Assembly: GCA_015178975.1 (NCBI GenBank)
Contig: WHVD01000004.1
Coordinates: forward strand, 1,116,001 to 1,180,000
Reading direction: 5' to 3'
DNA length: 64,000 bases
DNA from: Hysterangium stoloniferum
Lineage: Eukaryota > Basidiomycota > Agaricomycetes > Hysterangiales > Hysterangiaceae
Numbering within the stretch: position 1 is the stretch's first letter; each line of letters starts with the position of its first letter. Below the pieces are notes generated by a model. The model was given only the letters and a program-made list of their open reading frames with translations, had not been told where the DNA came from and ran no database searches. The position numbers were made by a program, and so were the translations under genes. This document shows positions 22,717 through 46,139 of this stretch, piece by piece.

Positions 22717-24109
22717 TGTTACGACCGTAATTCCCGCCGGACTCTGGGCACTAACTTATACGCACCTTCACCCTATATGCACCAATTGTCAGTTTACCGG
22801 AATTCCCACCGGACTCCGTACATCAGACTTGACTACGTTCGACTTTGTTACATTGTGTATCATTCACTGGAATACCCACCAGACTCCATCCCTGTCTATG
22901 TATGTCCAACCTCGTCCCACATGTCAGTCACCGGACCCCACTCGGAAAACCTGCCATCCCTCTAACAGAGCCCCGTTCCCATTTTAGTCAAATGACCTGT
23001 CATGATTCGGACTCTGCTCCTGCTCCATTTCCCGTTATGGTTTATGATTTGTCATGATTCGGACTCTACTCCATTCCATCCCATTCCTGACACCAAATTT
23101 GGTGTTTACTATTCTTGTTTTATGTTTTGCTAGTTTTGTTTTATTATTACTGGATTTGGTATGTCATTCATTCCATGGTCTATATAGTCTGGCAGATGTT
23201 GTACGGAGGATAACCCAAAACTTTAAAAATTATTTATCCACTAAAGTATATATATTTATATTGTTTGTTGTAAAATTAATATTTAATCAAATTCAGTTGA
23301 TTAGGTATCACTCTGAAGAATGCAAAAATATTAATATTTATCCTATATCTGACAAAATTTAGTCAAACAATCATCTGTAGATTATTCTTTTGGAATAAAT
23401 TGCACAATGGGGATTGGTACCCCAGATAGTTCTGGTTAACTCTCTAAACCAACTAAATTTAAATTATATGAAATATATTTGAAAGTTTGCTTGGATACAA
23501 GAGAATACATCATAACCCAAAGATTAAGTCATAACCCAAATAATCTTGTTTAACCCAAATAATCTAGGTTAACCCAAATAATCTTGTGTAACTATTTCAT
23601 TTGTGTGTATTTTAAAAAGGCATGCATATTTTAAAGATGAAATTTCAGGTAATTAAATATAAACTCATAGAATAAGTTGTTATGGCCAGAAGAAATAGTC
23701 TCACTTGGAAAATATGAGGATTATTCAGTAAAATTTTGTATATTCAATAAAGTGTGACCATCCTCCTACATACAATCCAGTCAGAAAATCGGCTTAGATT
23801 CCCCCCAGTAATCTAATACATTTTCCGCTCTAAACTCCTACTTGAATTACACCGCTCATGCTAGTCGGAGCCCATGGGCTCCGGCACATCTATCTCTCTT
23901 ATTTGTCTCGACTCCTGACCTCTCGACCCATGACCTCCAACCTATGACCCCTCGACCCACGAACCCTGCCCGGACTCCCTGGGATTCCCGTCCACCTGTC
24001 TGAAATTGGACGACATGATCTTGTGAGGGCAGAGCCTATAAGCTGAAGCCAAGTCCTACTGGATATCCCACGGGTTTCTCTGGAAACCCACTGTGTACAT
24101 ACCCTAACA
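22717..24109 (+). mobile_element. Solo LTR of chromovirus family X, carrying a DNA transposon
   Basis: TG...CA ends are flanked by perfect CTTAT duplications (22712-22716 and 24110-24114). The length is 1393 bp, or about 828 bp once the internal 23205-23766 insertion and its duplicated TAC are discounted, matching other X LTRs. It interrupts the Copia-type gag. Confidence 0.9.
23205..23766. mobile_element. Non-coding DNA transposon with short TIRs and 3 bp TSD
   Basis: The segment starts GGAGGATAACCC and ends GACCATCCTCC, giving inverted ends GGAGGAT. It is flanked by TAC on both sides, and the uninterrupted GTTGTACATAC is seen in sibling LTRs. It is AT-rich and has no open frame for a transposase. 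TAACCCAAA recurs at the left end and several times around 23510-23580, as subterminal repeats do. The superfamily is not identified. Confidence 0.75.
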
Positions 24110-24240
24110 CTTATGATTGAAACAAGTCAACAATTGTATGTACATATATTTGGGATTGTACTACTGGACCTGAGGCATGGAAAGCACTTGCAAAAATTTA
24201 CCAGGCAAATAATTGGGCCAACTGGATCTCATTGAAATGG

Positions 24241-25100
24241 TGTTAAGGACTGTGTGCAGAGCTTATCAGAGGGTTTCTGGAGAAACCTGTGGGAAAGCCC
24301 AGTAGGACTTGGCTTCAGCTTATAGGCTGTGGCCTCATGAGATCGTGTCGTCCAATTTCAGACAGGCAGATGGGAATCCTGGGGAGTCTGGGAGTAGTTG
24401 GTAGGTTGAGAGGTCAGAAGGTTGATTGTGGGAATCCCATGGAGGTTGAGAGGTTGGGCAGTGATGGGTTGGAGGTTGAGCGATAGATAGGTTGCACAGG
24501 CTCTGACAAGGTAATTAGTGATGTGTTTCAAAGAGAGGAATAGAGTGGAAAATGTACTGAGATTACTGGGGGAGAATCTAAACTGATTTTCTGACTGGAT
24601 TGTATGTACAACATCTGCCAGACTATATAGACTGTGGAATGTATGTTATACCAAATCCAGTAATAATGAAATCCAAACTAGTAATCATGAAACAAGATAA
24701 GTAAACACCAAATTAGGTATTAGGAACAGAATGGAATGGGGGCAGAGTCCAAAATGTGTCAGGTTGTTAGACCGTAATGGGAATGGGGTGGGAGTGGAGT
24801 CCAAAACGTGTCAGGTCATTTGACCATAACAGGAATGGGGCTCAGTTAGAGAGCTGACAGGTTTTCCAAGTGGAATCCAGTGACTGATCTGTGGGACAGG
24901 GTTGGAGATAGACAGGTACAACATGCATGGGTCCTGGTGGGTATTCCAGTGACTGATTCATGAGACAATGAAGGTTCGACATGGGCAAGTTTGATGTCTG
25001 GGTCCCAGCGGGTGTTCCAGTTAACTGATAACTGGTGCATGTAGGGTGCAGGTGCATATAGGGTAGTGCCCGGAGTCCGGTGGGTTTTCCAGTCATAACA
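24241..25100 (-). mobile_element. Solo LTR of family X (minus), 860 bp
   Basis: Ends are TGTTAAGG...CATAACA, flanked by perfect AATGG duplications (24236-24240 and 25101-25105). It inserts in the Copia-type gag. It is CpG-poor, suggesting an older insertion than the solo LTR at 25156. Confidence 0.9.
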
Positions 25101-25155
25101 AATGGCAGCTGTACACATACCATCACAATGTTGAAAAACCAGTGATGGAATATGT

Positions 25156-25955
25156 TGTTAGGATATGTACAGGGCGGGTCTCCGGAGAAACTCGCAGAAT
25201 ATCCGGTAGGACTTGGCTTCAGCTTATAGGCTGCGCCCTCGCTAGATCGTGTTGTCCAATTTCGAACAGGCAGATGAGAATCCCGGGGAGTCTGGGTGGG
25301 GTTCGTGGGTCGTAGGTCGTAGGTCATAAGTCGAGATAGTTGAGACAGGTAGATGCACCGGAGCCCGTGGGCTCTGACTAGTGAGGGCGATGTGAATCAA
25401 GCAAGGGTTTAGAGCAGAAAATGGATTAGATTACTGGGGGGAATCTAAGCTAATTTTCTGACTGGATTGTATGTACAACACCTGCCAGTTTAAATAGACT
25501 GTGGAGTAAATATCATACCGAATCCAGTAATAATGAAATGAAGCGAGCAAAACATAAAACAGGAATAGTAAACACCAAATTGGTGTTAGGAATGGGATGG
25601 AACGGAGCGGAGTCCGAATTGTGACAAAGCATAACCCATAACGGGAAATGGAGTAGGAGCGGAGTCCAAATCATGACAGGTCATTTGACTAAAACAGGAA
25701 CGGGGCTCAATTAGAGTGGTGACGGGATTCTGAGCGGGGTCCGGTGACTGATGCGTGGGACGAAGACGGACATAGACAGAGACGGAGTCCGGGGGAAGTC
25801 CGGTGACTGATATGTATTGTAATGAGGTCGAACGTAACAAGTCTTGACATACGGAGTCCGGGCGGGAAATCCTATAAACAGACAATTGGTGCGTGTAGGG
25901 CGTGGTGGTGTACAGGTTAGTTCCTGGAGTCCAGCAGGATTGTCCAGTCGTAACA
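25156..25955 (-). mobile_element. Solo LTR of family X (minus), 800 bp
   Basis: TGTTAGGATATG...CGTAACA is flanked by perfect TATGT duplications (25151-25155 and 25956-25960). It retains more CpG than its neighbour at 24241-25100. Only 50 bases of Copia-type gag lie between the two solo LTRs. Confidence 0.9.
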
Positions 25956-26978: not shown

Positions 26979-27987
26979 ATGACCATGGGTTCAGGATCAA
27001 AACCTTTCCCATCCAGGCCAACCATCACCCCTGTATCAGGTCCAAGTGGACCTCTGAATGCACAAGAGTGTCGACAGCTTCTTGAAGAAAAGAAGAAGGC
27101 ATGTGAAGAGGAGGAGCATAAGGAGAGTGAAGAGCTGAAGGTGATAGAGGTGGAGGAGAAGAGGTTGGCAGAGGAGGAGGCTGCTCACAAGCATTGGGAA
27201 GCCATGCTTGTGAAGAAGAAGCAGAGAGAGGCCAATCAGGTGCGAGAAGAGGAGGTGAAAAAGTAACAGGAAGGTAAAGTAAGTCAGAGATATATATTTT
27301 TTCATTCTTGTAACCTTGCTGACATCCTTTCACAGTGCAAGGCGGCAACACCATCGGATTCCAATGATGAAGAGGATGAGGAGGATGAGGAGGGAGTGCC
27401 AGGGCCTTCGAGCCCTAAGGTATGTTCAGACTCCTATATGTATTTTAGTTTTTTTTTTTTAATTTTTTCGGTTATAGAAACAAAAACAGGCCCCCAAGGC
27501 AGGGCCCAAAAACAACCCGAAGTGCAATCGATGCACTAACTGAGGTTGGGTTTGCCATCCACAGACCAACGGTCGGGGCCACACTTGTCAAGAGTGTGCC
27601 AATCAGAAACTCAGTTGCATCTTCCCAGATACTGATGGGAATGGGCCCTATCAATAGTGGCAGGAAGATGCATTAGAGGAGCAAAATCAGCTCCTACACA
27701 TGCATTTCTCGGAAACTAGTCAGTTCTGACACAAGCAACTGCAACAACAAGCATTGTTCACCGAGCAATTGCAACTATTGGGCATGGGGTTGGAGAAACA
27801 AACCAACATCATAGAGTATGTTGGGGGACAACTTGAACAAGATTTAGAGCTGTCAAGTTCCAATGAGGCTGGGCCTGGGGTTGGGACATCAGAGAAGGTC
27901 AGTGAGGAGGTGTCGGTGGCCATTGGTGTAGGGGAAATCTCGGAAGCTGGGGAAGAAGGGGAGGTTGTAGAGGAAACCTTTAGGTAG
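26979..27987 (+). pseudogene. Opposite-strand accessory gene of chromovirus Z, three exons
   Basis: Exons are 26979-27254, 27336-27419 and 27478-27987, about 289 codons, running against the gag-pol genes. Exon 1 encodes a long charged coiled coil rich in Glu/Lys. Exon 2 is strongly acidic (DEEDEEDEEG). Exon 3 carries a Cys-rich motif (CNRC...CQECANQKLSC), then Gln-rich coiled coil and an acidic tail with EYVGGQLEQDLEL. The counterpart in chromovirus X (44010-44969, minus) has the same three exons, intron phases, length and motifs. Three in-frame stops in exon 3 (27541, 27655, 27727) fit CGA-to-TGA or CAG-to-TAG changes, so this copy is dead. A nucleic-acid-binding role is only a guess from the Cys cluster. 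I know of no named family. Confidence 0.75.
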
Positions 27988-28046
27988 TTGAAATATAATG
28001 TTTTTTAAACAAAACAAAAACAAAAACAAAGAACATAAGACATAGT

Positions 28047-28768
28047 TGTTAAGAACTGAAAACTGACTAATGTCGGTGGCCGACAGGGACCGATCGGAAG
28101 GACTTGGCTTCAGCTTATGTGCTGCGCCCTCGCAAATATCCGTAGGGTGTCCTTAAATTTCGGGTGGGCGAAGACTAATCCTAATGAGTACCTTTCAGCG
28201 TGATACCGATCGGAATCGAAGGACAAGTCGAGCGTCAGGCCAAGGGGTCGGGGCCGGGAGTGGGCGAGCGCACGCGAAGGCGGATGGGGGGATTCTTAGT
28301 ATGAGACTGATACAGGCGTATGAGGGTATTCTGAGTCGATATTCTGATTGCCTAGTGACTACAACTACAGCGGGTTCATATACAAGTAACAGGCATCTGG
28401 AAAATACTAATGGGGAGAAGGGCGGAACACGGTATTAACAATAAGCTTGACTAGGAACGGGAAGTTTATGATTAGTTCGGAGGCCAATGATAACCGAGAG
28501 TGGGATTACGATAAAAGGAAATAGTTCAAGGACTACAAATATAGATAGACATATGTGAAGCATAAGATTGAACGGATCAACATTATAAAGGGGATGTATC
28601 AAAGTTTGACCAGACAATATGAGTTATTTTGACGTGGGCGTAAACGGAGTTTGATCTTTGCGAAAACATTCGTCAGCTTTGGGGCCGATGGTTTCCGAGA
28701 TGGTGACTTGAAATGTTGACAAGTGGTGATAACCTCGGGACCGATAGGGTTGCGACACGGTCATAACA
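28047..28768 (-). mobile_element. Solo LTR, Z-related and CpG-rich, 722 bp
   Basis: TGTTAAGAACTG...GTCATAACA is flanked by perfect ATAGT duplications (28042-28046 and 28769-28773). It is inserted in chromovirus Z between the chromodomain and the opposite-strand gene. It keeps many CpG sites, unlike its host element, and is therefore probably young. Confidence 0.9.
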
Positions 28769-28802
28769 ATAGTCGGAAAAGGGGTCAGATTCCATGTGAA
28801 AA

Positions 28803-29126
28803 CTATAGAGAACCTAAGGGACCAGGTTTATTTGGATATGCTTGATGAAAACCTAAGGCAATTTCTGACGCATTGCTGGGCTCTGTAGCTAGGATCAATG
28901 AAGTTTCTTCATCTGTACCTTCATAGCCAGCCCATTTGACCAAATAAAGTAACTTGCATGAGTGTCGGCAATTGTCAATTTTGGAGTCTAGGATTTCTGA
29001 TATCTCAAATTTGGGTTCTCTGTCAATGATGATGGGTGGTGGTGGTGGTTTTATGTGATCTGGTATAATGTTAGCAACATGTGGTTCTAACATAGATACA
29101 TGAAATACTGGGTGCACTGCACACAT
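28803..29126 (-). pseudogene. Chromodomain at the C-terminus of chromovirus Z pol
   Basis: The frame encodes PPIIIDREPKFEISEILDS and then LLYLVKWAGYEGTDEETSL, a classic chromodomain (YLVKWxGY core with the ExS/W follow-up). In chromoviruses this part of integrase reads histone marks and directs integration to heterochromatin. The usual Trp after ETS is changed here. Upstream pol sequence continues to 29390 in other frames. Confidence 0.85.
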
Positions 29127-29392
29127 GCTGTCAGGAAGCTGAAGAGTCCATGAAAGTGTGCCAGCTTGTGCTATAACTTCAAAAGGACCTAAATATTTTT
29201 CAGAGGGCTTCTTGGATGGTCTAGTGGTTTGGAAAAACTTGGCTTTAACAAATACTCGGTCTCTGATCTTAAAGTCTGGAGGTGGAGGTCAATTCTTATC
29301 TGCAGACCATTGATATCATTCTTGGGTCATTGCAATAGTTTTCCAAAGTTCTTGATGTAGCTTGTCAAGGTTTGTAATGAAGTCTTGAGCAT

Positions 29393-30085
29393 GGGTGGAT
29401 GTGAGATCATGTTCCGGGTGGATGTGAGATCATGTTCCAGGTGGATGTGAGATCATGTTCCGGGTGGATGTGAGATCATGTTCCAGGTGGATGTGAGATT
29501 ATGTTCCGGGTGGATGTTGTTGGAAACCACTAAGCCAACGTTGGCTTTGTGGTTTCCAACATAAAGTAAACTCCGACCTGAAGGTCAGTAGTAACTCCCC
29601 TATGACTTGTTTAAGGCCGGTAGCCAACATTGTGTGGGCCAACATATATATTATGTAATTTTTATCCCTCTTAATGCCACTTATAAGTTATTTTTGCCAC
29701 TTATTTTTGGGCTTGAAACTATTGGTATGGGCGGGGATTGAACTCACGACCTTGTGGGGTCTTCGGAGTATCAGAGTTTATTTTATGTTGGAAACCACTA
29801 AGCCAACATTGGCTTAGTGGTTTCCAACAGATGTGAGATCATGTTCCGGGTGGATGTGAGATCATGTTCCGGGTGGATGTGAGATCATGTTCCGGGTGGA
29901 TGTGAGATCATGTTCCGGGTGGATGTGAGATCATGTTCCGGGTGGATGTGAGATCATGTTCCGGGTGGATGTGAGATCATGTTCCGGGTGGATGTGAGAT
30001 CATGTTCCGGGTGGATGTGAGATCATGTTCCGGGTGGATGTGAGATCATGTTCCAGGTGGATGTGAGATCATGTTCTGGGTGGAT
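29393..30085. repeat. 23 bp minisatellite inside the integrase gene, ~16 copies
   Basis: The unit GGATGTGAGATCATGTTCCG plus GGT repeats about 5 times at 29393-29515 and about 11 times at 29830-30085. A miniature element (29518-29829) interrupts the array. Read on the minus strand, the unit encodes the integrase segment HPEHDLTS, so the array grew from coding sequence. Because 23 is not a multiple of 3, each added copy shifts the frame. Some units differ at one base (CCGGG or CCAGG). Confidence 0.95.
29518..29829 (-). mobile_element. Miniature element with 44 bp palindromic terminal repeats and a tRNA-type B box
   Basis: Identical-length ends (29518-29561 and 29786-29829) each read TGTTGGAAACCACTAAGCCA and back, a near-perfect palindrome with TG...CA ends. 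Perfect GATGT duplications flank the element (29513-29517 and 29830-29834). The 224 bp interior has, on the minus strand, GAGTTCAATCCCCGCCC, a good match to the tRNA T-arm/B box. There is no coding capacity. A degenerate relative lies at 52190-52599. It behaves like a tiny LTR element (5 bp TSD, TG/CA) but could also be read as an inverted-repeat element. Confidence 0.8.
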
Positions 30086-31026
30086 TGTGATATTGGGGTT
30101 GTAGCCTTTGTTTGTGAAGAAAGGTGAAATGCCAGTAGTGGCATTTGGTGCATTGTTATATGCAAATTTGGCTAGCGGTAGTAGTGATTTCCAATTATCT
30201 TGTTGAGAGTTACAATAGACATGAATGTACTGTTCTAAGGTTTGATTCATGCATTCAGTTTGGCCATCGCCTTCTGGGTGATAGCTCCAAGTGAAGTGTA
30301 ATTTCATGTCTAGTGCTTTTCTGAGTGACCTAAAGAAATGAGAGACAAACTCAGATCCGCAATTGGATGTGACATGTGACAGAATGCTGTGCTTGGAAAA
30401 TACATGGGTGACAAATAGTTCAGCTAACTGTACAGATGTTATTGTGTCATATGTTAGAATGAAAATACTTTGCTTTGTGAGCCTATCCACAACAATTAGG
30501 ATTACTGTATGACCTTCAGATGCTGGTAGGTGTTTGATGAAATCCATAGAAATCGAGTTCCAGGGTTTTTCCAGTATCAGTAACTGTTTGAGTAGGCCAT
30601 ATGGTTTGTGTCACTGTGATTTAGAGCATAAACACATACAGGATTTGCAATAGTGCTTAATGAAATCTCAGATGCCAAGCCATGTATATTCTCTTCTAAT
30701 GAGTGCAAGAGTCTTGTTGAGGCCGAAATGTCCCAAGATTGGGTGGTCGTGCTTATGTTGTTGAACCCTGCAAGTCTAGTGACATCAGAGTTGATTGGGA
30801 TCGGATGGGTTATTGAGGTGTGCTTTGGTGACTGGGTCTAATGGAATTGCCGATAGTATGTCTTGATGTAACTTTTCAGTATCCATGAGGATAACACTTT
30901 GCAAGACTGGATGAATGAGGTAAGTGGCTCGGATAGACGTGGACAGTTGTTTGGATGAAAACATAGGCTTAAAGTTATGCAGATTAACTGTGGCATAATC
31001 GCTACTCCCCTCTTTAGGATAGACAT
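30023..31026 (-). pseudogene. Integrase of chromovirus Z, broken
   Basis: The catalytic core is open at 30023-30547: MDFIKHLPASEGH, VVDRLTKQSIF, HVTSNCGSEFVSHFF, GDGQTECMNQTLEQY. The second catalytic Asp (expected in SDxGSEF) is Asn. The reading frame runs into the minisatellite after HPEHDLTS. The upstream zinc-binding part (to 31026) is shifted and partly unreadable. A dead DDE integrase. Confidence 0.85.
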
Positions 31027-31030
31027 CCCA

Positions 31031-32433
31031 TCATCTAGTCATAGCGTTGGGTTTTCCACCAAGGTGGCTGGGATGGAAGCGAATGACCATGTTGAAGGTG
31101 GAAAGGTATTCAGACCAGTGAGGTTGTTGGTGGGTCAAGAGTTTAGTGGTTGAAAAGTAAACCAAATTTTTGTGGTCAGTTATAACATAAGATCTATCAG
31201 AAAAACCAATCCTTCCAGATAATGTCGCCATGTCTTGAAAGCTTCAAATATCACAAGTAGTTCTTTGTTGTGAACATCATAGTAGAGTTTGGGTGCCAAA
31301 AAGGTACAAGACAAGAAGGCTATTAGGTGGACTTCACCATCGGTGTCCAGAATGGACAATATCACAGCAAGTGCATAATCCAAGGTATCAGTTTCCACAA
31401 TGTGTTGAACATCGGGCTTCCAGTGCAACAAAATAGGGGCAGATGTAAATGAACTTTTCAATTCTCAGAATGCCATGTGGCATTCCTCAGAGAAATTCCA
31501 CAGGGCATCTTTACAAGTAAGACGAGTTAGCGGAATGGTAATTTTTGAGTAGTTGTGAATGAAATGATGATAAAAATTGGTGAAGCCTAAAAAGGACTGA
31601 ATGGCCTTGACCTTTCAGGGTTCTGGCCAATCTTGAATGACTTGAATTTTAGAGTCATCCATGCAGAGACTGTCGGGTCCCATCATGAAACCTAAATATT
31701 CAACCATGTTGACATCAAAAGAACATTTTTTACCATTTGCAAAAAGACCATGTTTTCAGAGTCTTTGGAGAACTTCATGGATGTGTTCATTGTGAAGTGT
31801 GGGGTCCTTGGAAAATATGAGGATGTTGTCTAAGTATACAATGACATAGATGTCGAGGAGGACGGAAAAGACATCATTGATAAAATGTTGAAAGACTGAT
31901 GGAGCGTTGGTGAGGCTGAAAGGCATCACTAACCATTTGAAAGAGCCATAGCGAGTGTGAAAAGCCGTTTTCCACTCGTCACCTTCGGCGATCCGAACCA
32001 AATGATAGGCATGTTTAAGATCTATCTTTGTATAGATTTAGGCCTTCTGAGGGGCATCAAGTAAATCAGAGATTAGTGGTAATGGGTACTTATCTTTCCG
32101 AGTGATCACATTGAGTCCTCAAAAGTCAATGCAAAGCTGTAGAGAACTGTCTTTTTTCCAAAAAAATAGAACAGGGGCTCCATAAGGAGACTTTGAAAGT
32201 GGGATAAATCCTATAGCCAAGTGTTCGTCCAAGAAATCTTGGATAGCCAATAGTTCGGACTGCGAGAGAGGATAAACTGGGCCTAAGGGCAGAGGTGAAC
32301 CTTCTTCAATATCAATTTTCAAATCATAAGGCCTGTGAGGGGCAAGTCGATCAGCGTTTTGTTTACTGAAGATGTTTGCAAATTTGTGGTATTTTTCTGG
32401 AACACCTTCCAAATCTGCAACAGGTTCAGCCAC
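31031..32433 (-). pseudogene. Reverse transcriptase and RNase H of chromovirus Z, broken
   Basis: Pieces are 32119-32433 (RT start, FLDEHLAIGFIPLSKSPYGA), 31756-32001 (RT core, [15 protein letters not shown]) and 31031-31461 (RNase [31 protein letters not shown]). The RT active site reads YLDN instead of YLDD, a G-to-A change on the coding strand that removes a catalytic Asp. Several stops separate the pieces. Confidence 0.9.
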
Positions 32434-32467
32434 CAGAGTTGCAAAGTGACCAGTGGCTTTGTCAACT

Positions 32468-33073
32468 TTAAGATTGACTGTAAATGCTCAGGAGCCTTCC
32501 AACTTGATGGCTCTCATAAAAGCTGTGGCATTTATTAGAGAGATGGGAGGTGGAGAGCTCAGATTTCATGGGGGCCAGAGGTGCTGTAGAGGCCATATTT
32601 GCTGAAACAGGTGGAGACAGACCAGTCATATCAGGTGCCAGCAGGGTTCGGAAAGGGATAGTGCCCAATACCCAATCAATCAATGGATTGTAGCAGGTGA
32701 GCCAGTTATGTCCTAGAACCATGGAGCAGCTCAAGTCCAACTGTGTTACAAAAAACATAACTGTCTGAAAAGTTCCACATGGGAACTGAAGTCAGAGTTC
32801 ACAAGCTTGCAAGATTACAGAGTTTGAGGTACCATCGAAAGGTCAGAGTGGAATCGGATCTATTGCATAGGTTTTTAACTGATGTTTTCAGGAAAAAATT
32901 ATATCTATGAAACAATGAGTTGAACCTGAATCTACAAGAGCTCTAAAATTGAGACTCCTGAAGGGTTTTGAAGTGGGATTTATAAACAATGAATTTGGAT
33001 CATAAAGAGCAGATGCGTTAAGATGACAATTCTCTGGTGTGCAGGGAGATTCAATGCAACTCTCCAACTGCAC
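32468..33073 (-). pseudogene. Aspartic protease region of chromovirus Z
   Basis: The 32888-33073 frame contains ALVDSGSTHCFID, the DSG active-site loop of a retroviral-type aspartic protease. The next frame (32468-32758) has TQLDLSCSMVLGHNWLTCYN, the usual second half of the domain followed by the linker to RT. The two are in different frames. Confidence 0.85.
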
Positions 33074-33134
33074 GGAATCCAGAGAGTTGCTTAATCTTTT
33101 TTTGACTCGGCAGCCAGCTTAGCCGGTTGTGAAG

Positions 33135-34398
33135 TCATAGCCATATTGGCTGATTGGGCTTTTGTGGCCTTTGGGCATGTGGCGACTCAGTGACTGGGAT
33201 CTGCACACAACAAACAAAGGTTGTTGTCCATTTGGCATTGCTTCTCTTGTGGTAGGAGCTTGCCGTCGGAGCCAAGTTTGCCAGTAAGGTCAGGTTTGTC
33301 TTTGTCTTGGGACTTACTTGACTGTTTGCCTTTGCCCTTTTTGTTGTTGGAACCCTTATTGTTGTACTTCTTATTGGAGTTTGAGTTGCCAGTATTGTTG
33401 GTGTTTTGATTACCAGACTTGTTGGCATTCTTGTTGTCCAATGATTTTTTGTCTGATGGGTTTTCACGACTGATTTCCAAGCATCATTCCCAATATTGGG
33501 CATCCATGTTTTGGGCCTTTAGACGCATGAGTGGGAGAGTCTTCAGCTTACTGGTCTCCCCTTTGGAAACTTCATCTTTGAGGTAGGATGGGAGGCTGGA
33601 GTAGAACTGGTAATGGAGGGCTGAATCACCCCAGTTGCAACATGTGGCAAGGTTGTTGAACTGAACGATGTAGTTGGTAATGTGTTGGGTGTCTTTCATT
33701 TTGAGATTAGAAAGCGCAGCCTTGGCATCGCCTGTTTGGTCATAGGGACCAAAGTTTGTTTCGACTTCCTCAATGAAAGCATCCCAATCATGAAGCCAAT
33801 TGGGATCTTCAGAAGTGAGGCCAGAAAATGTGGGTTCAAACCAGGCTGCTGTGGAATCCTTGAGGTAAGAGAGCACAAAATTTACCTTTCGGTCATCCAT
33901 TGCAAAAGCAGCCAAGTGGTCCCGAAAGTTGAATCAACATTGCATAAGAAATGTCAGTAATTTCTTTGGGTTTGAGCCAGTAAATGGTTCGGGTTTATTG
34001 ACTCGGGTTTGCCCAGGTTCCTTTTCCTTGGTATTGTTTTTAAGGGAATCATTAAGGGATCCTAAGGTACCTGAGAACAATTCCCATGCTTTGTCGGGAG
34101 TGAAATCTGGTTTTTGTTTAGCAGACTTCATAGGACCATTGGCTTGAGGTATAGACTGGTTGCTATCCTTGGGTTCAGGTCCCAGAGCTGACTGATTGTT
34201 AACCTCTTCAGGTGCTTTGGGTTCAGTGGCTTCAGTAACCTCTTCAGCATCACCAGTAATTTCCATGAAGTGGGATTCTTCGGAGCGTTCTGGTTGTGGT
34301 GTTTTCAGAGTGGCTTGGGCTGTATACAGGAATGGAGATTGAAGGGTGGAAGATTCTGCTTTGCCACTTGGCTTAACATCTTTCTTCCTTGGAGGCAT
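33135..34398 (-). pseudogene. Gag of chromovirus Z, interrupted by stops
   Basis: It starts at 34398 (MPPRKKDVKPSG). The capsid region (33484-33915) includes YLKDSTAAWFEPTFSGL and HITNYIVQFNNLA. An Asn/Lys-rich linker follows, then the zinc knuckle CLLCADPSH-stop-VATC. TGA interrupts the frame near 33920, after WE (33481-33483) and after the knuckle His (33187-33189). Each fits an ancestral CGA (Arg). The chromovirus X gag has a TGA at the same place in the knuckle. Confidence 0.9.
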
Positions 34399-37120: not shown

Positions 37121-38773
37121 TGTTACGACCAGAATTCCTGCCAGACTCCAGGCACTAACTTATATGCACCTGCACCCTATATGCACCAATTGTCAGTTTA
37201 CTGGAATTCCCACCAGACTCCGTACGTCAGACTTGTCCACGTTCGACTTCATTACTTCATGTATCAGTCACTGGAATACCCACTGGACTCCATCCCTGTC
37301 TATGTCCAACTCTGTCCCACACATCAGTCACCAGACCCTGCTTGGAAAACCGGTCATCTGTTATGACCGGACAATCCCGCCGGACTCCGGGCACTAACCT
37401 GTACGCCCCCATGCGCTACAAGCACCAATCGTCTGTTTATAGGATTTCCCGCCCGGACTCCGTTATGTCAAGACTCGTTATGTTCGACCTCATTACGATA
37501 CATATCAGTCACCGGACTTCCCCCGGACTCCGTCTCTGTCTATGTCCGTCTTCATCCCACGCATCAGTCACCGGTCCCCGCTTAGAATCCCGTCACCGCT
37601 CTAATCGAGCCCCGTTCCCGTTTTAGTCAAATGACCTGTCATGATTTAGGACTCCGCTCCCGCTCCGTTTCCTGTTATGGGTTATGCTTTGTCACGATTT
37701 GGACTCCGCTCCGTTCCGTTCCGTTCCTAACACCAATTTGGTGTTTACTATTCCCATTTCATGTTTTGTTAGTTTTCGTTTCGTTATTACTGGATTTGGT
37801 ATGTCATGCATTCCACGGTCTATATAAACTGGCAGATGTTGTACATACAATCCAGTCAGAAAATTAGCTTAGATTCCCCCCAGTAATCTAATAATATTTT
37901 CCGCTCTAAAAACCTTACTCGATTCACATCACTCACACTAGTTGGAGCCCACGGGCTCCGGCGCATCTATCTCTCTCAACCAGCTCGACTCACAACCCAC
38001 GACCTCCGACTTACGACCCACAACCCGACTTACAATCTACGACCCACGAACCCCGCCCGGACTCCCCGGGATCCCCGTCTGTCCGTTTGAAATTGGACAA
38101 CATGATCTAGCGAGGGTGCAGCCTATAAGCTGAAGCCAAGTCCTACCGGATATCCTGCGGGTTTCTCCGGAAACCCGGCCTGTGTGTGTATCCTAACATC
38201 ATCCCTCTAACTGAGCCCCATTCCCGTTATAGTCAAATGACCTGTCACAATTTGGACTCCACTCCCACTCCATTCCTGTTATGGTTTTATGACCTGTCAC
38301 GATTCGGACTTCATTCCATTCTGTCCCATTCCTAACACCAAATTTGGTGTTTACTTATCTCATTTTATGTTTGTTAGTTTCATTTTCATTATTACTGGAT
38401 TTGGTATGTTATTCATTCCACAGTCTATATAGTCTGGCAGATGTTGTACATATAATCCAGTCAGAAAATCAGCTTAGATTCTCCCCAGTAATCTTAGTAC
38501 ATTTTCTGCTCTAAATTCCTCTTTGAATTACACAGCTCTCACTAGTCGGAGCCCACAGGCTCTGACACATCTATCACTCAACCTCTGACTTATCTATCTC
38601 AACTCCCTGACCTCTTGACCCACGAACTCCACCTGGACTCCCCAGGATTCCCATCCGCCCATTTGAAATTGGACAACACAATCTCGTGAGGGTGCAGCCT
38701 ATAAGCTGAAGCCAAGTCCTACCAGATTTCCCACAGGTTTCTCTGGAAACCCTCTGTGTACACACCCTTAACA
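37121..38773 (+). mobile_element. 5' LTR of chromovirus X with a nested solo LTR
   Basis: Sense features: repeats of GGAATTCCCACCAGACTCC type in the upstream part, a TATATA box at 38426, the inferred transcript start AGTCAGAAAAT at 38459-38469, and the CAGCCTATAAGCTG hairpin motif about 80 bases before the end. The nested LTR occupies 37359-38198. Confidence 0.9.
37359..38198 (+). mobile_element. Nested solo LTR of family X, 840 bp
   Basis: TGTTATGACC...ATCCTAACA is flanked by perfect TCATC duplications (37354-37358 and 38199-38203). It is richer in CpG than the LTR it interrupts, so it is a later insertion of a related subfamily. Confidence 0.9.
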
Positions 38774-38807: not shown

Positions 38808-40070
38808 ATGCCACCAAGAAGAAAAGCACATGCACAGGCATCATTACCTGGACCATCAACTCTTCATTCCCCACTTACTTTGTATACCAGCCAGACACTC
38901 ACAAACCAGCTGGAAGCCATGGAAGAAGTCCATATCAAAGAAGTCCTGGAAAACCAGGACAAATCTGAGCATGAGGATGAGTCCGTGGCCCCTGACAAGG
39001 GCAAGGGTGTTGAAAATCCTCTGTCTAACGATCGACCGCCACTTTTGGACCCTGCCTCTGAGTATTGAGCAATCACTTTAGAAAGGTTGATGAATCACAT
39101 GCTCGGAGAAGGCAAAAAGAAGGATCTGGAACCTCTGTGGTCAAAAGTCAATGCTCCGGAACCCTTCACAGGTTCCAACCCAAACAAACTCTCCACTTTC
39201 CTCATGCAATATTGCTTCAATTTCCATGATCAATCCGCTGCATTCTCCACGGACTCCCGAAAAGTCAACTATGCACTTTCATACTTGTTGGGATCCATGT
39301 TTAAATGGTTCAAACCGGCTTTTAGTGGACTTTCCGAGGAAGAGCCACTCTGGCTCGAATATTGGGATGCTTTTGTTGAGGAGCTTGAAACCAACTTTGG
39401 CCCATATGACCCGACTGGAGAAGCCGAGAACAGTCTCACTAATCTTTGTATGAAGGACACACAGCACATCACGGACTATATCATCCAATTCAATAATCTT
39501 GCAGCTCATTGTCAGTGGGGCAATCCCGCTCTCCACCACCAATTCTATGCTGGTCTGCCATCCCACCTTAAAGACAAAGTCTTGAAAGGAGAAGATGGCA
39601 AGCCAAAAACCCTGTCCCATATGTGCCTTAAGGCTCAAAATGCAGATGCACATTATTGGGAATGTCACACAGAAGTTGCCCATGAGACCTCCACAGACAA
39701 AGTGAACAAGTCCACAGCCAATAAAACCAACAACAACAACTCGTCAACCAGCAACCAGAACTCCACACAATCTGACAAGAAGAATGATAAAAAGTCTTCT
39801 AACAACAACAACAACAACAAAGGTCAACAGTCCGGCAAGCAAACTGGAAAACCCAACCTCACAGGCAAGCTCGGACCCAATGGCAAATTGACCCCACAAG
39901 AAAGGCAACGTCGTATGGACAATAACCTCTGTCTCTTGTGCAGAAAACCTGGTCATTGAGTCCTAGAATGTCCACTGGCAAAAGCAAACTCTGCAAAGGG
40001 TCAAACAGCCAAGACCTCCATGGAAACTCCGTCGAAGGACAAACTGGCTTCCGACTCGAAAAAAGAGTGA
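38808..40070 (+). pseudogene. Gag of chromovirus X
   Basis: It starts with MPPRRKAHAQ. An acidic N-terminal region is interrupted by TGA at 39066-39068. The capsid-like region then runs to about 39690 (YLLGSMFKWFKPAFSGL, HITDYIIQFNNLA). A long Asn/Lys/Ser linker with an AAC-rich stretch follows, then the zinc knuckle CLLCRKPGH-stop-VLEC with TGA at 39957-39959. The same frame reads on past this stop to about 40069. Both stops fit CGA to TGA. Confidence 0.9.
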
Positions 40071-41557
40071 GCAACCCTGTGGACTCCATGCGGGTTGGGG
40101 GTTGCATTGCCTCTCCGTGCATTCAAGAGTTTACCCATCTCAACACATCCACTCTTTCGCATTCTGATTCATTTTTCATTAAACTTATGTCTAATATGAT
40201 TCTGAAACTCATTTTTTCAGCCCTCATAGATTCTGGCTTGACTCACTGTTTTTTAGATACAAAATTCACACAAGAAAATCTGTTGTCAACTTATCTGATA
40301 AATCCCGTCAGCCTCTGCCTTTTTGATGGCACAAGTAATTTGGTTGTCACCCAAGCTTGTGATTTATCCACTGTTTCCCATGTGGAACATCTCAGTTGGT
40401 CACTTTCTATATGACCCAGTTAGACTCAAGTTGCTCAGTTGTCCTAGGACACAACTGGCTTACCCGCTACAATCTGTTGATTGACTGGGTAGCTAACAGT
40501 ATAACTTTCTGGACACCCGTGGCAGCCGAGGAAACTGTACCTGACATGGCCTCCACAGCACCCATGGCCTTCCCGGCACCTATGGCCTTCCTGGCACCTG
40601 CAGTCTCAAGGACTCCTGTGATCCCTACAGCACCCATGGCTTCCCCAGAACCCACAGCACCTCCGTCTATTTCTCTGATTAATGCTGCAGCTTTTATTAG
40701 GGCTACAAAAATGGACAGGTCCCAGGCATTCACTATCAATTTAAAAATTGATGAAGCAACCGGCCATTTTTCAACCCCAGTATCTGAATCTGAGCAAACC
40801 GCCAATCTAGAAGGCATCCCAGAGAAATATCATGACTTTGCAGATGTTTTTAGTAAGTGGAAAGCTGACTGGCTTCCACCCCACAGAGAATACAACTTAA
40901 AAATCAACCTCAAAGAAGGTGCCCAGCCACCCCCTAGGACATATTTACTTACTCTCATCCACAGAACTTTCCACAATCCGTGATTTCCTGGATGAACATT
41001 TGTCCATAGGCTTTATCACACCCTCTAAGTCTCCTTTTGGAGCACCTGTTCTGTTTGTCAAGAAAAAGGATGGATCCCTTAGACTATGTGTTGATTTCAG
41101 AGGACTCAATGCTGTCACAAAAAAGGATAAGTATCCACTTCCACTTATATCTGACCTCCTCGATGCTCCATGGAATGCCCAGATTTACACCAAAATAGAC
41201 CTTAAACATGCCTATCATTTGGTCTGGATCTCTGTGGGCGATGAATGGAAAACCACTTTTAGAACCTGTTATGGGGCCTTTGAGTGGTTGGTGATGCCCT
41301 TTGGACTCACCAATGCTCCATCTGTTTTTCAACATTTTATCAATGACATTTTCTCCAACATGCTCGATGTATGCATCATTGTTTACTTGGACGACATTCT
41401 TATCTACTCCAAGACTCCTGTGGAACACGACAAACAAGTCCATGAAGTTCTCCAGAGACTCAGAAAACATGGTTTATTCGCGAATGGTAAAAAATGTACT
41501 TTTGACACAGACTCCATGGAATACCTGGGTTTCATGATAGGACCCGATGGACTCTGA
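39938..41557 (+). pseudogene. Protease and reverse transcriptase of chromovirus X
   Basis: The protease has ALIDSGLTHCFLD (near 40230) and LDSSCSVVLGHNWLTRYN (near 40440), in two frames. A Pro/Ala/Thr-rich linker follows. RT (40919-41557) is nearly intact, with [20 protein letters not shown], the active site [12 protein letters not shown] and [13 protein letters not shown]. It ends at a TGA (41555-41557) where related elements usually have Arg (GLRMD). Confidence 0.9.
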
Positions 41558-42667
41558 ATGGACGAAACTAAAGTGCAAGTCATCAAAGATTGGCCTGAAC
41601 CCCGAAAAGTTAAAGATATACAATCCTTCCTCGGCTTTGCCAATTTTTACAGACAGTTTATCCATGGATATTCCGACATCACGGTACCCCTTACCCATCT
41701 TACGTGTAAGGGTACTCTGTGGAATTTTAATGATAAGTGTCAAAAAGCTTTCAATCTTTTAAAAAATTCTTTTTCTACAGCTCCTATTCTGTCGCATTGG
41801 AAACCGGACTTCCCGCTCATTGTCGAAACGGATGCCTCAGATTATGTGCTTGGAGCCATTCTGTCTATCCAGGACTCCGACAGAGAAGTCCACCCTGTGG
41901 CTTTTCTGTCCCAGACTTTTACCGGAGCAGAGCTCAACTACGATGTTCATGATAAAGAACTCCTGGCAATCTTTTCAGCTTTCAAAGCATGGCGACACTA
42001 TTTGGAAGGTTCAGGAGCTCCTATTGACATTGTAACAGATCACAAAAACCTGGAATACTTTTCTACCACAAAACTTTTGACCCACCGGCAGGCCCACTGG
42101 TCTGAATATCTATCTGCCTTCAACATGATTATCAGTTTTCGACCCGGCCGTCTCAGCGGCAAACCCAATGCTTTAACTAGACGATGGGACGTCTATCCTA
42201 AAGAGGGGAGCAACGACTATGCAACGGTAAATCCGCACAACCTGAAACCTATTTTCACGAATCAACAACTTACCGCATCGGTCCACACAACTTTCCTCGT
42301 CACTCCCATTGTCCGTGGAATTATCATTATGGATATTGAGAAGTTATATCAAGATATTCTATTGGCAATTCTGCTAGACCCAATTACTAAAGCTCACTTT
42401 GACAATCCCATGGACCCCAGTCAACCCCGGTGGTCTCTTGATCAACATGGTTTCATTAGACTTGACGATCGCATCTATGTACTGGACTCCAACGGCCTCC
42501 ACCTCAGGATCCTTCAATACAAACATGATCATCCACTTTCAGGACATTTTGGGTACAACAAAACTCTATCATTAATAAGAAGAGAATATACTTGGCCCAG
42601 ACTCTGTGGATTCGTTAAGCACTATTGTAAATCTTGCACTACTTGTCCCCGCTCGAAATCTCAGTGA
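41558..42667 (+). pseudogene. RNase H and integrase zinc finger of chromovirus X
   Basis: This long open segment begins MDETKVQVIKDWPEPRKVKD. RNase H has IVETDASDYVLGAILS, DKELLAIFSAFKAWRHYLEG and TDHKNLEYFSTTK. The integrase HHCC motif follows (HDHPLSGHFGYNKTL...CKSCTTCPRSKSQ). It ends at TGA 42665-42667, again at an expected Arg (SQRHKPYG). Confidence 0.9.
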
Positions 42668-43557: not shown

Positions 43558-43818
43558 ATGGATCACATGCAATCTGCACCTCCTCTGGTCATTATTGACA
43601 GAGAACCCGAGTTTGAAATCTCACAAATTTTAGATTCAAAAATTGACAAGCGTCAATGCACTTGTAAACTGCTTTACTTGGTCAAGTGGGCAGGTTACAA
43701 GGGCACCAATGAAGAGACTTCATGGATTTTGGCCACGGAACTCGGTAATGCCACAGAAATCATTACTGACTTTCATACAGCTTACCCACTCAAACCCAGA
43801 CCACTATCTTCTCTCTGA
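43558..43818 (+). pseudogene. Chromodomain of chromovirus X
   Basis: PPLVIIDREPEFEISQILDS is followed by LLYLVKWAGYKGTNEETSWI, a full chromodomain core with the conserved Trp. The link to integrase (43441-43558) is frame-shifted. It is predicted to direct integration to marked chromatin, as in other chromoviruses. Confidence 0.9.
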
Positions 43819-44009: not shown

Positions 44010-44969
44010 TCAGTCTACATTTATGGGACTGTGTTTCTTCCCCACCTTATCCATCTCCTCAGGAAGCTCCACTATCTCTGTGGGAACCCCATCCTCATCT
44101 GACCCGGCATCCTCAGAACTCCCGATTTGCAGCTCTTCATACACATAGCCACCATACTCTGCCAGGAACTTCCAAAATTCCTCTTGGAGCCCACAAAGTT
44201 CCTTAGCCACTACTATCTGCACCTTGTTGCTCTTCCTAAGCAACTCATTTTGGGCCTCTATGCCCTCAGCGATCTGCCCCAAAACCTCATCCAAACCCGA
44301 AAACCCATCTGACCTGCTCATTTTCCACACCATGGACCCTGTGGGCTGCTCATGAATGAGCGAGCACCTCACTTTGAGGTGCACACATTGGAAGCAGCCC
44401 AGTCCCCACCTGGACTTCCGATTGCAGTCAGTGTTCTGGTCATTGCAACCAGAACACCACAGGTCGTTCCTCGCAGGTAGCGGACTGGTGCCGCTTTCCT
44501 TGCCTTCTGTTGATGTGGTTAGCTTCCCCAGAATGCCCATGGACCTGAGACTTACCTTCTGGGGGCTCTCTGGCTCCCCCTCAGACTCAGACTCAACTTC
44601 TGTCACCTTGCACTGAAAATACCAAGTCAGTTAAAGTCGACAAGTTGTAACTATGGGACTTACTTTGCCCATGGCAACCACAGCCCTATCTGCAGCCACC
44701 TGGGCTTTCTCCACAGTGACCCATGCAGCCTCCTCCTCATCCTTCTTCCTCTGCTCCTCAGCCACTTTCTCCACAGCCAGTGCCACCTGGTACTTCCTAT
44801 CCAGCTACTCTTTGGCCTCCTTGGCCTCTCTCTCTGCCTCCTTTCATTGTCAACACTGTTCCTTCCGCTGCACCAAGATTTGGGCAGTGGTGAGAGGCAC
44901 CCAATATTGATTGCCTGTGGAGGGCCCAGCAGTTGGCATTGGTTTGTGCAGTGTTGGTTTTGGTCCCAT
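44010..44969 (-). pseudogene. Opposite-strand accessory gene of chromovirus X, three exons
   Basis: Exons on the minus strand are 44969-44664, 44612-44556 and 44498-44010, about 283 codons, all in phase with GT-AG introns of 51 and 57 bases. Exon 1 encodes a Pro-containing head (MGPKPTLHKPMPTAGPS) and a Glu/Lys/Ala coiled coil. Exon 2 is acidic (EVESESEGEPESPQK). Exon 3 has a Cys-rich motif (CSGCNDQNTDC then GCFQCVHLKVRCS), a second coiled coil (LDEVLGQIAEGIEAQNELL) and an EYGGYVYEELQIGSSEDAG tail. Chromovirus Z encodes the same layout on its opposite strand. Stops in exon 1 fit CGA-to-TGA and CAG-to-TAG decay. Function unknown. Lying just inside the 3' LTR, it could be driven from the LTR or from its own promoter. 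Confidence 0.75.
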
Positions 44970-45160
44970 GTTGATGATGGGGGTAATAAAGAAGAAGAAA
45001 ATTTCATTTTTTCAAATTTTTATAGGCTCATCGCATCTGAACCTTACCTTCCAGATCACATGACCCTTTGACACATATGTGTAACTGACATGACTTTTGA
45101 CACATGCATGTAGCTGACAAAACCTTATCAAGGTCTAGAGCCTCTTTGGGACTTTGGCAT

Positions 45161-45173: not shown

Positions 45174-45985
45174 TGTTACGACCGGAATTCCCACCAGACT
45201 CCGGGCACTAACTTATATGCACCCACACCCTATACACACCAATTGTCAGTTTATCGGAATTCCCGCCAGACTCCCTATGTCAGACTTGTCCACATTCAAC
45301 TTCATTACTTCATGTATCAGTCGCCGGAATACCCACCAGACTCCATCCCTGTCTATGTCCAACTCTGTCCCACACATCAGTCACCAGACCCCACTCAGAA
45401 AACCCATCATCCCTCTAACTGAGTCCTGTTCCCATTATAGTCAAATGACCTGTCATGATTCAGACTCCACTCCCACTCCATTCCCATTATGGTTTTATGA
45501 CCTGTCACGATTCAGACTCCACTCTGTTCTGTCCCATTCCTAACACCAAGTTTGGTGTTTACTTATCTCATTTTATGTTTGTTAGTTTCATTTTCATTAT
45601 TACTGGATTTGGTATGTTATTCATTCCACAGTCTACAGTATATAGTCTGGCAGATGTTGTACATACAATCCAGTCAGAAAATCAGCTTAGATTCTCCCCA
45701 GTAATCTTAGTACATTTTCTGCTCTAAATTCCTCTTTGAATTACACCACTCTCACTAGTTGGAGCCCACAGGCTCCAATGCATCTATCACTCAACCTCCG
45801 ACTTATCTATCTTGACTCTCCAACCTCTTGACCCACGAACTCTGCCCAGACTCCCTGGGATTCCTGTCTGCTGTTTGAAATTGAACAACACAATCACATG
45901 AGAGTGCAGCCTATAAGCTGAAGCCAAGTCCTACTGGATTTCCCATGGGTTTCTCCAGAAACCCTCCATGTACACACCCTTAACA
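45174..45985 (+). mobile_element. 3' LTR of chromovirus X, 812 bp
   Basis: TGTTACGACC...CCTTAACA, same features as the 5' LTR. Three ~70 bp-spaced copies of GGAATNCCCNCCAGACTCC begin at 45184, 45256 and 45326. Confidence 0.9.
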
Positions 45986-45988
45986 ACA

Positions 45989-46139
45989 TGTTGGTTTTAG
46001 TTATATTATCGTTGAGGAAACTCATGATTTACTAAATATGCACTTTTTCTAGAATACACTCGGTTAAGATGTACTTTACAGTAGCTTAGTCATACATACA
46101 TAACTTTGTCCATTTTTGTTATACTGTCAACATTTAACA
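45989..46139 (+). mobile_element. 3' LTR of the gag-only Copia-type element
   Basis: TGTTGGTTTTAG...CATTTAACA matches 22288-22446 with an 8-base deletion. Its first two bases are shared with the ACATG duplication made by the chromovirus X insertion. Confidence 0.85.

Follow-up and report, generated by a model that had tools for sequence, protein, structure and literature searches.

How does a gene with introns persist in a retrotransposon when it is written on the strand opposite to gag-pol, and what would its product do there? The question is raised by a 64,000-nucleotide stretch of DNA (hereafter the window; WHVD01000004.1, positions 1,116,001 to 1,180,000) from Hysterangium stoloniferum, an ectomycorrhizal fungus within Phallomycetidae (PMC7550596). 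Two chromoviruses in the window, termed X and Z, each carry a three-exon gene antisense to gag-pol, in the interval between the chromodomain and the 3' long terminal repeat (LTR). The antisense reading frame is under purifying selection, and its predicted product resembles a Zn2Cys6 protein, with membership of that family short of proven. The reading favoured here, at somewhat less than an even chance, is that the gene may encode a transcription regulator that acts on the LTR of its own element and works like HBZ of human T-cell leukaemia virus type 1 (HTLV-1).

The X gene lies on the minus strand and consists of three exons separated by phase-0 GT-AG introns, and the Z gene has the same layout. 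To compare copies, the genome (111 Mb in 554 contigs, with the window on contig C334) was searched, and an X set of 40 rows was assembled from the window copy and the 39 best-scoring genome copies; two entries, L014 and L015, were the same copy and one was left out. The parts of the two genes are as follows.

44664..44969, minus strand: X exon 1, with an MGPKP start, rich in E, K and A and coiled-coil-like by inspection; three in-frame stops in the window copy
44613..44663, minus strand: X intron 1, 51 nt, with a branch-like CTGACT; GT-AG in 36 of 40 rows
44556..44612, minus strand: X exon 2, 57 nt, phase 0, acidic; open in 36 of 40 rows
44507..44555, minus strand: X intron 2, 49 nt; GT-AG in 36 of 40 rows
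44010..44506, minus strand: X exon 3, with a basic stretch, C-x2-C-x6-C-x9-C-x2-C-x6-C, a helix-like segment, EYGGY and an acidic tail
26979..27278, plus strand: Z exon 1
27336..27419, plus strand: Z exon 2, acidic
27478..27987, plus strand: Z exon 3, with the six-Cys motif; stops in the window copy

The third exons of X and Z align with a score of 73 against a maximum of 56 in 1000 shuffles, and a profile built from X copies only matches one built from Z copies only at E 1.2e-5. The region after the cysteines, taken alone, scores 49, which is inside its shuffle range. The two antisense proteins are 27% identical.

An intact antisense gene in the window is ruled out: the X copy has its three exon-1 stops and a broken exon-3 frame, and the Z copy has stops. 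Similarly, only one of the 40 X rows is open throughout and 39 are broken somewhere, while a stop or frame break was seen by eye somewhere in all 12 Z rows (the window and 11 loci). Even so, 30 of the 40 X rows retain the six-Cys pattern in one or another frame of exon 3. Separately, exon 1 of two copies, L039 and L033, shows a 7-residue unit (VAAEKAR or VAVEKAR) that has been tandemly expanded in frame.

Since a single X row was open throughout, dN/dS on intact copies was replaced by a codon-position test. On a tree of the 40 X rows, parsimony was used to assign changes either to terminal branches or to internal branches, which were taken as mostly pre-insertion; only transversions were used because the copies differ chiefly by transitions. 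The tree was built on the unmasked alignment, and the masked counts exclude dissimilar flanks. On internal branches the masked rates were 0.18 transversions per site at position 1 (51/285), 0.13 at position 2 (36/284) and 0.50 at position 3 (143/284), with 0.51 in the introns (50/98 sites), which is far from neutral. The unmasked internal counts, each per 288 sites, were 61, 43 and 144 (Fisher p 4e-12); the masked terminal-branch rates were 0.30, 0.21 and 0.54. As a sense-strand control, gag, reverse transcriptase (RT) and RNase H were biased likewise in 7 to 14 copies with few changes; the ratio of position 2 to position 3 on internal branches was 0.25 for the antisense gene versus 0.13-0.25 for these controls, which had 1 to 16 changes per class. 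Relative to the same window element, the antisense gene has diverged about twice as far as pol. Over 7 to 19 copies per region, the median transversion difference of exon 3 was 2.7%. The LTR gave 1.8%, the gag, RT, RNase H and integrase regions 1.2-1.8%, the protease stretch 0.7% and the chromodomain 0.0%.

These rates bear on the idea that a host gene was captured recently and is now hitch-hiking and decaying. Introns and an own promoter do resemble a host gene, and 39 broken rows are what such decay would leave, but the gene occupies the same place in two families diverged to 27% identity in this protein and 73% in RT, the inequality among codon positions on internal branches indicates selection, and the copies differ mostly by transitions. 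A recent capture is therefore very unlikely. The original prediction, which proposed from the letters alone a conserved opposite-strand chromovirus gene kept by selection, with a homologue at 26979-27987, is partly supported: the homologous three-exon gene in X and Z and its retention by selection stand, and the copies in the window are dead.

The host elements are related chromoviruses, that is, Ty3/gypsy elements with gag, RT, RNase H, integrase and a C-terminal chromodomain between LTRs. X, on the plus strand, runs from a split 5' LTR to a 3' LTR and encodes gag, RT, RNase H, an integrase H2C2 domain and the chromodomain, while Z is on the minus strand; their proteins are 73% identical in RT and 56% in gag.

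39087..39959, plus strand: X gag (Retrotrans_gag)
40919..42667, plus strand: X RT, RNase H and integrase H2C2
43591..43806, plus strand: X chromodomain, about 200 bp from the antisense stop
28806..34029, minus strand: Z gag-pol and chromodomain

The predicted occurrence of homologues beside other chromovirus copies was borne out in the genome, where the element family with the spliced antisense gene has more than 100 copies. Long flanks were fetched for 19 of the 39 X copies, all sampled copies having been found through the antisense gene itself. Past the antisense stop, a chromodomain lies on the opposite strand in 17 of the 19 X loci and 10 of 12 Z loci; it is missing there in X loci L016 and L021, and LTR insertions have widened the gap in L015 and L019. 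The gene thus has the position that defines the class aORF-3R, an open reading frame antisense to gag-pol in the interval between pol and the 3' LTR. In two Z copies, L050 and L051, chromodomain and antisense gene are on the same strand, which could reflect an inversion or a nested element.

A related and less decayed copy, L061, shares the three-exon layout and contains one stop. In a search with its exon 3, 150 of 420 candidates were scored and 69 of these were stop-free; in a search with the Z-type chromodomain, 150 of 1760 candidates were scored. A Z-type chromodomain was found within 2.5 kb on the opposite strand for 102 of the 150 scored exon-3 matches and on the same strand for none, and 102 of the 150 scored chromodomains pair in turn with an exon-3 match; the remaining 48 matches have no partner among the 150 scored chromodomains. 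The gap between exon 3 and chromodomain has a median of 124 bp, and 96 of the 102 gaps fall within 100-180 bp.

This spacing bears on a further possibility, namely that the gene belongs to a small non-autonomous element of its own, with an LTR at either end, which has inserted into chromoviruses. Such an element could account for the window Z gene, which is flanked by two LTRs, and for the gap of about 0.8 kb in L058. Against it, the inner LTR in the window belongs to another subfamily, and the gene sits about 100-180 bp from the chromodomain in 8 of the 11 other Z loci as well as in the 96 paired matches. A nested element is contradicted by these direct chromodomain-gene junctions and is scarcely credible.

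The condition of exon 3 was compared with that of the adjoining pol frame. Eleven of the paired chromodomains belong to open frames of 1000 codons or more, and 10 of the 11 corresponding exon-3 matches are stop-free (one of the ten partial). The figure is 17 of 48 for pol frames below 200 codons (Fisher p 0.0015), and 45 of 91 for all pairs other than the eleven. Three more long-frame chromodomains have no partner among the 150 scored exon-3 matches. On these counts exon 3, at least, stays open in the elements that seem to have been active most recently. Of the 150 best Pfam chromodomains (from 2268 candidates) only one pairs with an antisense match, at a gap of 415 bp versus about 124 bp, so that carriage of the gene by further chromovirus clades of this genome is not shown. 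That lone pairing also means that the L061 gene may belong to an element other than that of the adjacent chromodomain.

A conserved TATA promoter for antisense transcription is predicted from two elements upstream of the start codon.

45018..45026, minus strand: TATA box, about 55 nt upstream of the antisense ATG, conserved as CCTATA or TATA
45051..45063, minus strand: upstream element TCAyrTGAyCTGG, common to X and Z

CCTATA stands about 55 nt 5' of the ATG in 30 of the 32 X rows that cover the region, and TATA occurs at the corresponding place in 11 of 11 Z rows, the window being included in both counts. In a separate upstream alignment of those 32 X rows, internal branches carry 7 transversions in 65 sites from -110 to -46, 14 in 44 sites of the leader and 35 in 98 sites of the introns. 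The promoter is situated inside the element, between the 3' LTR and the gene, and each new copy would therefore carry it along.

A conserved promoter would also be expected if the antisense transcript acted as RNA, as a source of double-stranded or small interfering RNA or by interference with sense transcription, and if the protein were incidental. Silencing via antisense transcripts has been proposed in a review (PMC7264820), and both the TATA box and the upstream element are conserved. The codon-position bias, in contrast, indicates selection at the protein level, the X and Z reading frames are homologous, and exon 3 lacks stops in 10 of the 11 pairs with a long pol frame. A function as RNA only was rejected on the codon-position bias, and is considered improbable.

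If the protein matters, its composition is the next clue. The product has about 280-300 residues and comprises an E/K/A-rich exon 1 (a coiled coil by inspection), an acidic exon 2, a basic stretch, a cluster of six cysteines, a further helix-like stretch and an acidic tail. The cluster reads C-x2-C-x6-C-x9/10-C-x2-C-x6-C, with x9 in X and x10 in Z. The consensus of the fungal Zn(II)2Cys6 family is C-x2-C-x6-C-x(5-12)-C-x2-C-x(6-8)-C, and the spacing of the cluster falls within it. Furthermore, Pfam Zn_clus is listed for seven of nine family members (best E 0.0033), and the family profile matches LEU3 (2er8) at E 0.015 with the six cysteines aligned, with weaker matches to 6e33 and Pho7 (6o19). 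An NCBIfam search gave nothing useful.

A regulator of this type would need sites to act on, and candidate CGG pairs are present in the LTRs.

45174..45990, plus strand: X 3' LTR, carrying two CpG-decayed CCGGACTCCG forms
37121..38773, plus strand: X 5' LTR in two pieces, 37121-37358 and 38197-38773
37359-38176, LTR within an LTR: inserted LTR splitting the X 5' LTR, with three CCGGACTCCG sites

X-type LTRs, a set that includes solo LTRs and LTRs of other elements, hold up to three CCGGACTCCG (CGG-N3-CCG) near positions 20, 93 and 163, and a decay-tolerant form is present at no fewer than two of the three positions in 33 of 34. The first 420 nt of the eight least-decayed X LTRs contain 18 CGG-N3-CCG versus 1.06 in shuffles. 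Some LTRs of the Y and Z types carry CGG-N7-CGG, ten bases from CGG to CGG: the Y-type LTR of L060 has four, where shuffles average 0.068 (3 of 2000 family-wise), and the window Z LTR has two (family-wise 5 of 500). Across the whole window the count of each pattern is higher than in any of 100 shuffles (14 vs 5.3 and 15 vs 2.65).

Several other LTR features of the window are recorded here in their own right. The inserted LTR at 37359-38176 has a high CpG ratio (1.18) inside the older X 5' LTR, and a Y-type solo LTR at 28030-28800, which separates the Z antisense gene from the Z chromodomain, is apparently young (CpG observed/expected 1.15). X-type LTR pieces are piled up at 22717-25955 in both orientations, including inverted pairs. 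The Z integrase region contains 23-nt tandem repeats at 29393-29517 (5.4 copies, 95% matches) and 29830-30090 (11.3 copies, 98%).

Under the regulator reading, this accessory gene of a chromovirus clade, with the position opposite gag-pol described above, would be driven by its own TATA promoter, immediately internal to the 3' LTR. Its introns would persist through retrotransposition because they are opposite in strand to the genomic RNA and so are not removed from it. The spliced mRNA would give a nuclear protein of the length stated above, which might dimerise through its helical segments, bind DNA through the Zn2Cys6-like cluster and contact the transcription machinery through its acidic segments. 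Seated on spaced CGG pairs in the LTRs, the protein would set sense transcription as well as its own expression, in the manner in which antisense-encoded HBZ acts on HTLV-1 transcription. The HBZ mRNA is spliced. A more specific version, possible but doubtful, is a self-contained sense/antisense circuit convergent with HBZ, in which the antisense zinc-cluster factor reads a CGG array in its own LTR whose geometry has shifted together with the fast-evolving protein from family to family, being CGG-N3-CCG in X and CGG-N7-CGG in Y and Z.

A number of observations tell against a regulator of this kind. On the protein side, neither the first member (7.3 bits) nor L061 (13.3 bits) reaches the Zn_clus gathering cut-off of 21 bits, and a phmmer search of L061 alone against PDB found no Zn2Cys6 chain. 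In Zn2Cys6 proteins the residues that link Cys 2 to Cys 3 usually include basic ones; this holds for L061 (TKWGRT) and not for X (NDQNTD). An AlphaFold model of the window exon-3 piece with three sequences was useless (predicted local distance difference test score, pLDDT, 38). On the DNA side, direct pairs are also abundant in X LTRs (N4 20 vs 2.5, N8 18 vs 2.5, N2 15 vs 2.45), so that the enrichment there is one of CGG pairs generally and the N3 geometry is not singled out. The two CGG-N7-CGG of the L061 part-LTR reach a family-wise 35 of 500, the two of the solo Y-type LTR in Z are not significant (255 of 500), and the exact motif is absent from 7 of 13 Y/Z-type LTR pieces. The LTR tests were picked post hoc on related copies, and the CGG pairs may instead serve host factors. 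Moreover, the unmasked count upstream of the gene is high (48 in 80 sites) because the flanks of truncated copies are non-homologous.

The wider pairing in X LTRs led us to weight the regulator readings down and to weight up the main rival, a real antisense protein that is not a transcription factor. Chromodomains are targeting modules, and a protein whose gene adjoins one could serve nuclear import of the preintegration complex, choice of integration site together with the chromodomain, or RNA handling. The placement, selection, open exon 3 and promoter speak for such a protein just as they do for a regulator, and the Zn2Cys6 support is weak. Conversely, an own opposite-strand promoter sets the gene apart from gag-pol translation, and acidic segments, a Cys cluster and CGG pairs in the LTRs together suit a transcription factor better. 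This alternative is accordingly plausible, with a likelihood of roughly a third.

Transcription regulation by antisense genes of retroelements has been discussed before. Genes lying antisense in the interval from pol to the 3' LTR form a class already described in the literature, for plants and in one fungal case (PMC7264820, PMC11963269, PMC8365987). The fungal case is the antisense gene brtn of Boty-like retrotransposons in Botrytis cinerea (Zhao et al. 2011, via PMC7264820, PMC8365987), which is likewise listed as an extra gene between pol and 3' LTR (PMC7264820); its host is an ascomycete, and the likeness drawn here is one of description. Among the plant aORF-3R (Grande gene23, RIRE2 and the Retand TRP28 ORFs), Grande is reported to have its own promoter and a nuclear product (PMC7264820). 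DNA binding has been predicted for TRP28, and a regulatory role and the comparison with HBZ have already been proposed for plant aORF-3R (PMC7264820, PMC11963269). These differ in having plant hosts, and Retand, with its TRP28 domain, belongs to a non-chromovirus lineage (PMC11963269); the words 'zinc', 'coiled' and 'intron' do not occur in the main text of that paper. HBZ is a functional parallel as an antisense-encoded nuclear regulator of a retroelement (PMC11963269), but it is a bZIP protein of a human retrovirus, without a Cys cluster, and no homology is claimed.

The fungal Zn(II)2Cys6 factors such as LEU3 and Pho7 share the six-Cys spacing and the sub-threshold profile matches with the H. 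stoloniferum product, which differs in being encoded by a retrotransposon, in having a helix-like segment N-terminal to the cluster and, in X, in the scarcity of basic residues from Cys 2 to Cys 3. That spacing and profile support, together with the published class and its fungal case, make the earlier statement that no named family has this architecture too strong. Protein-database searches seeded by exact words, one of them extended to E 10 and some scoring the candidates with the most words in common, matched only H. stoloniferum, which speaks against a wide distribution, and a zinc-cluster antisense gene of a retrotransposon was not found among the matches listed for the open-licence literature. 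Among those matches the zinc-cluster-like product with its spliced structure, conserved promoter and LTR site arrays likewise had no counterpart, the antisense class itself being known.

The function of antisense accessory genes in LTR retrotransposons has been called unknown (PMC7264820, PMC11963269). In H. stoloniferum a candidate DNA-binding module and candidate target sites occur in the same element, which makes the regulator hypothesis directly testable, and the mapped promoter, the copies beside long open pol frames and the selection signal add to this testability. Finally, the case suggests how a spliced gene may persist in a retrotransposon, since introns that are antisense to the genomic RNA would escape removal.
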